Positions 5,797 through 6,607 of a stretch of DNA of 34,313 bases are shown here, piece after piece. The notes under the pieces were generated by a model. It was not told where the DNA came from, did not search any database, and saw only the letters and a list, made by a program, of their open reading frames with translations. The stretch lies in IMG/VR virus record IMGVR_UViG_3300031787_000469, positions 1 to 34,313 of that record, one strand, 5' to 3'. Within the stretch, counting starts at the first letter, position 1. Every line of letters begins with the position of its first letter. Origin of the DNA: a virus. A program made the translations under genes and the position numbers.

Positions 5797-5894
5797 TACT
5801 TTGCTCCTACTAATTGTGCTAGTTGGGCTTGATGACGACGCTGTTCTTTTTGTTTTTGTTCTTTAATGAGTTGTAGGAAGTTAAGTTTTTTCAC
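5796..5894 (-). CDS. 32-residue basic, glutamine-rich peptide (GTG start)
   Basis: The start is the GTG at 5894, which overlaps the DUF4278 stop as GTGA and is preceded by AGGAGGGG. The product (MKKLNFLQLIKEQKQKEQRR...) is a short amphipathic basic helix rich in Gln and Lys. Its TAA overlaps the ATG of the membrane peptide gene. The chain of overlaps is the main evidence that it is translated. Function is unknown. Confidence 0.6.
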   Translation of the reverse strand: MKKLNFLQLIKEQKQKEQRRHQAQLAQLVGAK

Positions 5895-6028
5895 TTGTGC
5901 CCCTCCTTTACAAAACGAACACCACGATAGGTCTCGTTGTATTGTTGGGGTTCTTGTTGCTGTTGTGCCTGTTGTTGCTTACGAACTTCTGTGTCGTATG
6001 CTTGGCCACGATAAACGACTTTAGACAT
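5891..6028 (-). CDS. DUF4278-like small protein
   Basis: A 45-residue protein: MSKVVYRGQAYDTEVRKQ, a glutamine-rich linker, and a second YRGVRF motif near the end. The duplicated YRG(V)xY/F element matches DUF4278, a short family shared by cyanobacteria and their phages. A strong ribosome site (AAGGAGAA) precedes the ATG. It heads a run of four overlapping tiny genes down to 5555. No enzymatic residues are visible; a host-derived regulatory or structural peptide is possible. Confidence 0.75.
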   Translation of the reverse strand: MSKVVYRGQAYDTEVRKQQQAQQQQEPQQYNETYRGVRFVKEGHK

Positions 6029-6066
6029 TAGGGTTCTCCTTAAGTGTTAAGTTAAAGAGCGTTCCT

Positions 6067-6222
6067 TCAGTCGGCTTTTGCGTCTATGAAACAACTTTTC
6101 TTTGTTAACTGTTTGATTTCACATACAAGATCATTTTTTTGATAATCTGTAACAAAATTACTAGCATTAACTCTGCTAATGAGAAGTTGTGCTTGTAAAC
6201 AGGTTAAGAATAATTGTTCCAT
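6067..6222 (-). CDS. small hypothetical protein, possible paralogue of its neighbour
   Basis: A 51-residue frame (MEQLFLTCLQAQLLISRVNA...) ending KKSCFIDAKAD. The pattern of an N-terminal cysteine, central Ala-Gln-x-Leu helix, Asp-x-x-x-x-Asp-Leu segment and late cysteine parallels the C-terminal part of the gene at 6272-6472 (ISCDAAWELMDIV, then KDVIQRC). It lacks a signal peptide and has no clear ribosome site, and a stop codon lies 9 codons upstream, so it may be a truncated copy. Coding status is uncertain. Confidence 0.45.
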   Translation of the reverse strand: MEQLFLTCLQAQLLISRVNASNFVTDYQKNDLVCEIKQLTKKSCFIDAKAD

Positions 6223-6271
6223 AAATGAACGAATCCGTTCCGAGTCGGCTTACTTCCGTCCTATTCAGTTT

Positions 6272-6472
6272 TTAGCACCTTTGAATCACATCCTTTCGGA
6301 GTTCTAAAAGCAATCGGTCTTCTACTCTTTGGTGGACTACATCGTCGTTTTTAACGATGTCCATTAGTTCCCACGCGGCGTCACAACTTATAGTCACAGG
6401 ATATGATTTGAGTTGTGGCGTTGAAACAGAAAGAAGTGGAACCCATGCTAAAAGCAAAAGTGCTTTAGTCAT
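6272..6472 (-). CDS. small exported or lipid-anchored-like hypothetical protein
   Basis: A 66-residue product with a signal-like N-terminus (MTKALLLLAWVPLLSVS), then a short domain with two cysteines (ISCDAAW near 28-34 and the terminal RC). The two cysteines could form a disulfide in the periplasm. It has no Shine-Dalgarno sequence: the leader reads CCTCCTAACGTTCATCCT. A TATAAT at 6493-6498 would give a very short leader. Two promoters in tandem and an inverted repeat precede it, so it is probably transcribed early and may be regulated. Function is unknown. Confidence 0.65.
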   Translation of the reverse strand: MTKALLLLAWVPLLSVSTPQLKSYPVTISCDAAWELMDIVKNDDVVHQRVEDRLLLELRKDVIQRC

Positions 6473-6514
6473 AGGATGAACGTTAGGAGGTTATTATACT
6501 CCTATTCATCCTAT
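6471..6514. repeat. interrupted inverted repeat spanning a promoter (operator-like)
   Basis: ATAGGATGAA (6471-6480) is perfectly inverted as TTCATCCTAT (6505-6514), and an inner pair AGGAG (6485-6489) / CTCCT (6499-6503) adds five more. The TATAAT box at 6493-6498 sits in the centre, and one outer arm covers the start codon. As DNA it could bind a dimeric repressor. As RNA only the promoter-distal arm would be transcribed from this promoter, so an RNA hairpin would need read-through from the promoter at 6567. Confidence 0.7.
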
Positions 6515-6522
6515 ATAGGCAA
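6493..6522 (-). promoter_or_regulatory. sigma70-type promoter inside the inverted repeat
   Basis: TATAAT at 6493-6498 with TTGCCT at 6517-6522 and 18 bases between them. The -10 is perfect and the -35 has four of six matches. It reads toward the small exported protein gene. Confidence 0.6.
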
Positions 6523-6566
6523 CCTTTGTGTGAAAACTGTAACAATAAATACGAAACTGTATCTAT

Positions 6567-6596
6567 ATTATACTAAAAAGCGTGAAGATTTGTGAA
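6567..6596 (-). promoter_or_regulatory. sigma70-type promoter
   Basis: TTCACA (6591-6596), 18 bases, then TATAAT (6567-6572), 11 of 12 consensus matches. It overlaps the terminator of the preceding unit, so transcription appears to stop and restart here. Confidence 0.65.
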
Positions 6597-6607
6597 AACC
6601 CTCACGC
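6575..6607 (-). terminator. probable intrinsic terminator
   Basis: On the minus strand GCGTGA (from 6607) pairs with TCACGC (ending 6580) across a long loop and is followed by TTTTT (6579 to 6575). It lies about 40 bases past the stop of the gene at 6648. The stem is short for its loop, so strength is uncertain. Confidence 0.55.

Follow-up and report, generated by a model that had tools for sequence, protein, structure and literature searches.

Promoter region and inverted repeat

On the minus strand of a 34-kb viral record (the window, i.e., the whole stretch of DNA analysed here), an inverted repeat surrounds a promoter and runs into a small gene that has no ribosome site. This raises the question of whether the repeat is an operator for a regulatory protein or part of a structured leader RNA. 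The DNA of the window resembles that of T4-like cyanophages, S-SRM01 being the nearest among named records. All features of the repeat, promoters, aptamer and ORFs are located on the minus strand. Those of the promoter region are as follows.

6580-6607, minus strand: terminator-like stem-loop after the upstream gene, found in a sequence scan
6567-6596, minus strand: upstream sigma70-like promoter P_C, TTCACA-18-TATAAT (11/12); a comparable upstream -10 box occurs in 25/163 leaders
6539-6552, minus strand: NtcA-like site GTATTTATTGTTAC (GTA-N8-TAC), a motif enriched in leaders
6517-6522, minus strand: -35 box TTGCCT of promoter P_B (TTGCCT-18-TATAAT, 10/12)
6511-6517, minus strand: TATATAG, matching a conserved TAnATA element that stops 7 nt short of the hairpin; putative upstream start P_A
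6505-6514, minus strand: outer arm, 5' side, ATAGGATGAA; a mean of 7.1/10 pairs kept in 80 leaders, compared with 3.6 in shuffled ones
6484-6504, minus strand: covarying promoter hairpin TAGGAG-TATAATAAC-CTCCTA with the -10 box (6498-6493) in its loop; 148/154 leaders
6471-6480, minus strand: outer arm, 3' side, TTCATCCTAT, within the aptamer 5' strand; perfect pair with 6514-6505
6272-6472, minus strand: ORF1 (66 aa), located within the P2a loop; 262 relatives, from which 80 loci were retained; frame open in 82 distinct sequences

A sequence-only reading had described a perfect 10-bp inverted pair, which is indeed present at 6514-6505 / 6480-6471 (ATAGGATGAA/TTCATCCTAT). The inner pair, given there as 5 bp, exists as well but comprises six (TAGGAG 6504-6499 / CTCCTA 6489-6484). 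The repeat brackets a TATAAT, as had been stated, at 6498-6493 in the loop of the inner pair, and it covers the ATG (6472) of the 66-aa ORF, before which no Shine-Dalgarno sequence was found. The second promoter said to overlap a terminator upstream was also recovered (TTCACA-18-TATAAT, 11/12, 6596-6567, over the terminator at 6607-6580). The gene product, called a small exported protein, is small; its export is suggested by a hydrophobic N-terminus only.

Relatives of ORF1 numbered 262 among the candidate IMG/VR stretches, and 80 loci were kept. The upstream regions of ORF1 loci and those obtained from two pattern scans made up 154 unique leaders; the loci are mutually related, and the counts reported here are not numbers of independent events. 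When folded as RNA, the repeat reached -19.2 kcal/mol (z = -5.2), and none of 200 shuffles was as stable. Of the 154 unique leaders, 148 have a hairpin with four or more Watson-Crick pairs around a TAnnnT box, and 48 distinct 5' arms occur. The 32 unique inner-arm pairs had a mean of 4.66 Watson-Crick pairs out of 5, compared with 2.01 when partners were swapped. The outer pair was complete (10/10) in just 7 of 80 ORF1-bearing leaders, so it was no longer regarded as the key feature, and in one locus (L005) the outer arm was broken despite a nearly identical leader. The expected conservation of the arms was therefore seen for the inner arms, through compensatory change, and only in part for the outer ones. 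Judged by sequence comparison, it is the inner hairpin, carrying the -10 box in its loop, that is conserved as a unit, not the outer 10-bp pair.

The label "operator-like" did not withstand this comparison. An operator, at which a host or phage protein would block or activate transcription by binding the palindrome over the -10 box, could account for a dyad centred on that box and for the second, NtcA-type dyad upstream. Nevertheless, complementarity persists through complete changes in arm sequence, which argues against a protein operator: no conserved half-site is shared by the 48 different 5' arms, pairing is lost when arm partners are swapped, and the hairpin of P-SSM4 is kept without a -10 box, behind CATAAATA. 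We regard an operator as very improbable.

The hairpin and CGTTC are usually separated by 1-2 nt, and the distance from the TAnATA element to the hairpin is about 7 nt; a TTG is present 17-18 bp ahead of the loop -10 box in most leaders. These positions bear on another explanation, in which the hairpin would merely stabilise or insulate the 5' end of transcripts from TATATA/TAAATA, and the loop box would be a minor second start. It would fit the placement of the hairpin in most leaders, about 7 nt past TAnATA and 1-2 nt before the aptamer, the P-SSM4 hairpin (TGTAGC-AATT-GCTACA, with no -10 inside) and the few hairpin-less leaders in which TAnATA directly precedes the aptamer. However, the loop TAnnnT and the TTG 17-18 bp upstream survive complete changes of the arms, and we consider a mere stabiliser rather unlikely. 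The earlier view of a control region with a short and a structured long leader was right in so far as this is a promoter region, kept in relatives, whose start sites would give one or the other of these leaders.

In the upstream region, GTAN8TAC was found in 132 of 163 unique leaders, compared with 1.3% of shuffles; a few of the matches fall on promoter hairpins. In an NtcA-controlled promoter, this motif would be expected some 22 bp ahead of a TAN3T box. The spacing varies between locus groups and does not consistently fit canonical NtcA activation. In 24 of the 25 P_C-bearing leaders (of 163), the motif is displaced upstream by 8 bp relative to its place in most loci. Two loci, P-SSM4 (L312) and L256, have a hairpin without a -10 box in the loop, behind the late-promoter-like element CATAAATA and ahead of the aptamer. 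In P-SSM4, a manA RNA (RF01745, 135 bits; L312:1-152) lies directly upstream of the composite element.

A candidate glutamine aptamer split by two genes

The composite element of the window extends from 6482 to 6059 on the minus strand, its aptamer strands being split by ORF1 and ORF2.

6478-6482, minus strand: P1a 5' strand CGUUC, with which the composite glutamine-aptamer RNA begins
6471-6476, minus strand: P2a 5' strand UCCUAU, overlapping the ORF1 start codon
6259-6264, minus strand: P2a 3' strand AUAGGA
6243-6250, minus strand: P3 5' strand AGCCGACU; position 8 Watson-Crick in 153/154 loci
6227-6240, minus strand: P1b hairpin GAACG-GAUU-CGUUC, circularly permuted second junction
6067-6222, minus strand: ORF2 (51 aa); it starts in P2b, and its stop codon is the E-loop UGA of the aptamer
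6083-6094, minus strand: P2b 3' strand UUGUUUCAUAGA; 12 pairs with 6225-6214
6059-6076, minus strand: P3 3' strand AGCCGACU, GAA, P1a 3' strand GGAACG and C6059, which pairs with G6256

The invariant CGTTCATCCTATG, which had been taken for a leader without a ribosome site, corresponds by its sequence to the 5' strand of the type-1 glutamine (glnA) aptamer. This explains why no ribosome site is present: the leader forms one strand of an aptamer that encloses ORF1 and the next gene. A relative from which ORF1 is deleted (L124) matched RF01739 with 45.3 bits (gathering cut-off 35). Other relatives with an empty first loop also matched, DSL-LC02 with 35.6 and P-SSM2 with 35.1 bits (cut-off 35), and a compact form of the element in S-CREM1 is annotated as glnA. 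The RF01739 core and the three-way junction (P1, P2, P3) are present in gene-free relatives, and the same strands occur in the window. An Rfam/cmscan scan of the window did not detect the RF01739 element, as the inserted genes split the aptamer strands. A BTnc060 match of cmscan in the window was dismissed as chance (23.5 bits, cut-off 228.9).

The residues described as contacting the ligand in the glutamine-I/II aptamers (PMC6698751) correspond to positions that do not vary in either half of alignment A2. With these bases retained in both halves, the element is a candidate glutamine sensor. In one locus (L079), ORF1 is retained, the 3' half of the aptamer is gone and the P1 strand is mutated; no GTAN8TAC was found there.

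The element shares with the type-1 riboswitch (glnA, RF01739) the core CGUUCA, P2, GACG[G/C]AAGUA, P3, GAA and GGAACG, as well as a DUF4278-type gene downstream and an NtcA-like site upstream. It differs in that two halves are crossed and have P3 in common, in that the inner junction is permuted, and in that whole genes lie in the P2 loops; the window form escapes the Rfam model. The type-2 riboswitch (Downstream-peptide, RF01704), compared by sequence elements and score, also has CGUUCA, GACGC and GGAACG elements and a small peptide gene. Matches to RF01704 were nevertheless below threshold (22.0-26.4 bits, cut-off 33), and its peptide gene follows the aptamer, whereas the genes found here are inside it.

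Crossed arrangement of the two halves

The two halves appear to be joined by an outer stem between the first CGUUC and the last GGAACG and by a covarying P3 that links them, around an inner junction that is circularly permuted. In all 156 loci, the nucleotide that follows the first GACG can pair with the one that follows the second GGAACG (G-C in 97, C-G in 59), and the reciprocal long-range pair in the crossed register is formed in 153 of 155. The first GGAACG and the second CGUUC close a hairpin, from which it follows that the inner junction is circularly permuted; one locus (L199) carries a self-complementary, stem-forming insert in exactly the loop of this P1b hairpin. Position 8 of P3 (U-A, G-C or A-U) is paired in 153 of 154 loci, compared with a mean of 92 and a maximum of 105 after shuffling; this count takes in loci with ORF2 between the P3 strands. 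Positions 3 and 6 of P3 are mostly C.A mismatches. The P1 strands are invariant, and P1 itself therefore shows no covariation.

In the 11 gene-free loci, 100% of cells were paired, and covariation was 0.225, compared with 0.082 in shuffled alignments (0/500); slid-structure controls on the same loci gave at most 0.062. RNAalifold returned a similar overall fold for the 11-locus gene-free alignment. P2a is nearly invariant in the ORF1 family (UCCUAU/AUAGGA), and the mean P2a stem (5.77 pairs) barely exceeds the swapped-partner maximum (5.74). The P2b stems that bear ORF2 have a mean of 6.17 pairs, compared with 4.32 with swapped partners.

Two ordinary tandem aptamers, each closing its own P1, would have a precedent in the tandem glnA RNAs already described (PMC2864571), and cmscan does align the first or the second half alone. 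In the tandem register, however, the same two long-range pairs are formed in only 58/156 and 57/155 loci. The long-range and P3 covariation fits the crossed register only, and each half alone is without one strand of the AGUA/GAA E-loop. Simple tandem aptamers were accordingly rejected as highly improbable. The anatomy of a crossed composite of two junctions is well supported by the aligned sequences.

Genes inside the P2 loops

The P2 loop of either half ranges from a few nucleotides to a whole small gene. Among 156 unique loci, 52 have an ORF in both loops, 50 in the second only, 41 in the first only and 11 in neither; the remaining two have an odd second loop. Both nested ORFs of the window have their AUG in or beside a P2 stem and no Shine-Dalgarno sequence. 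Across loci, the loop-1 AUG is at offset 4 in the P2 strand in 91 of 95 cases, the loop-2 AUG is at offset 3-5 in nearly all, and in 94 of 102 loci the stop codon of the loop-2 gene is the UGA that belongs to the aptamer E-loop. The third codon position is the most variable and the second the least in both ORF families.

Neither a family search with the ORF1 protein nor tblastn of ORF1 against named phages gave a match, and the AlphaFold model of ORF1 was poor (mean pLDDT 57.6). ORF1-type and ORF2-type proteins have a common Cys...Cys pattern; the hhalign profile comparison was weak (probability 13.7%). No match was found between the nested genes and homing endonucleases. Other small proteins occupy the loops of marine loci. 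Both nested genes are annotated in P-SSM4 and P-HM1, and the loop-2 gene in S-SSM7 and P-SSM7. In P-SSM2 (L311), a loop-2 ORF starting ATGGACATACTACTCGC after the second CGTTCA is unannotated in the record.

The free variation of the loops, from short hairpins to genes, is what would be expected if they simply tolerated the insertion of small ORFs, and nested translation had no influence on ligand folding or the reverse. We find this unlikely, since it leaves aside the fixed offset of the start codon (91/95, offset 4, loop 1), the stop codon placed in the aptamer core (94/102, loop 2) and the Cys...Cys pattern shared by both ORF sets, weak as their profile match is (13.7%).

Downstream gene and distribution

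5891-6041, minus strand: Shine-Dalgarno AAGGAG (6041-6036) and ORF3 (6028-5891), DUF4278-like

According to a review (PMC6316151), type-1 glutamine riboswitches of cyanobacteria are mostly linked to DUF4278 genes, and glutamine activates expression. ORF3 of the window scored 16.8 bits against the DUF4278 Pfam family, below the cut-off of 25.3, and its P-SSM2 counterpart 29.0 bits, above it. The linkage of RF01739 to a DUF4278 or nitrogen gene is thus seen via the P-SSM2 counterpart, ORF3 of the window being below the cut-off.

The element is common in cyanophages and is carried by the laboratory phages S-PM2 (empty loops), P-SSM2 (one gene), P-SSM4 and P-HM1 (two genes each). One pattern for it matched more than 120 cyanophage contig stretches, and 40 phage records match the S-CREM1 element. 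A strict 25-base core pattern was found in two contigs of a collection of 84,980 species genomes from bacteria and archaea. Both are labelled Prochlorococcus, and one of them (189,106 bases), equal in length to the IMG/VR viral contig that contains L230, is probably a phage; given the strictness of the pattern, other cellular forms may exist. NtcA sites (PMC3037559) and glnA matches (PMC9964418, PMC10665884) in cyanophages are known. In the open-access papers searched, cyanophage glnA is noted just as an Rfam match, and we found neither protein genes inside aptamer loops nor a double glutamine aptamer that is crossed and circularly permuted.

Proposed mechanism

By comparison of the loci, a sigma70-like promoter with its -10 box in a covarying hairpin loop lies 1-2 nt before a predicted composite type-1 glutamine (glnA) aptamer. 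The explanation that we favour, and hold to be probable, combines this promoter-in-hairpin with the crossed composite aptamer and its nested genes, expression being switched by start site and glutamine. The switching itself, i.e., start-site choice and glutamine folding against nested translation, is a proposal.

Transcripts from the hairpin promoter would start approximately at the aptamer and be without the 5' arm, so that the aptamer could fold and ORF1 would be nearly leaderless. Upstream starts (TATATA, P_C or read-through) would yield transcripts that carry the hairpin. If transcription began before 6514, the outer 10-bp stem would also bury CGUUCAUCCUAU, holding the aptamer and ORF1 shut. 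The computed mean unpaired probability of GUUCAUCC was 0.06 in the long leader, 0.74 in the short form and 0.38 for the middle start. At 6475-6442, a local hairpin (CCUAUG...CAUGG) made up of the first ORF1 codons covers the start codon, and in isolation the computed fold pairs the ORF1 AUG by this hairpin even in the shortest transcript, which weakens a simple open/shut reading.

Glutamine would stabilise the aptamer, the P2 stems closing over the nested start codons and the DUF4278-like gene being favoured; without glutamine, translation of the nested genes by ribosomes would pull the aptamer open. Ligand folding and nested translation should compete, because the nested AUGs are positioned within or next to P2 stems; one stretch of RNA would probably have to serve both the synthesis of the nested proteins and the sensing of the nutrient. 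In a fuller version of the proposal, which we consider somewhat less likely than not, the aptamer would house two protein genes, and folding on the ligand would exclude translation of these genes and the reverse. One glutamine-sensing RNA would then choose between two protein sets, and the choice of start site at the hairpin promoter would determine whether the sensor folds.

Parallels exist in T4. In the e, soc and I-TevI leaders, a promoter is located inside the 5' part of a hairpin, and internal transcripts escape the structure (PMC3014915). The -10 box studied here likewise lies within a hairpin, in its loop. Unlike in T4, the promoter is sigma70-like (TATAAT with a -35 box) and not a late promoter TATAAATA, and there is no buried Shine-Dalgarno sequence, as none precedes ORF1; the sequestered strand is that of the aptamer. 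In ORF-bearing group I introns, such as td with I-TevI, a loop of the folded RNA likewise contains a gene, whose translation is at odds with folding (PMC3014915). The RNA that hosts the genes here is, in contrast, a riboswitch-type aptamer and not a ribozyme.

Inserted genes can hide known RNA families from standard searches. The element would link phage infection to the nitrogen status of the host via a small RNA.
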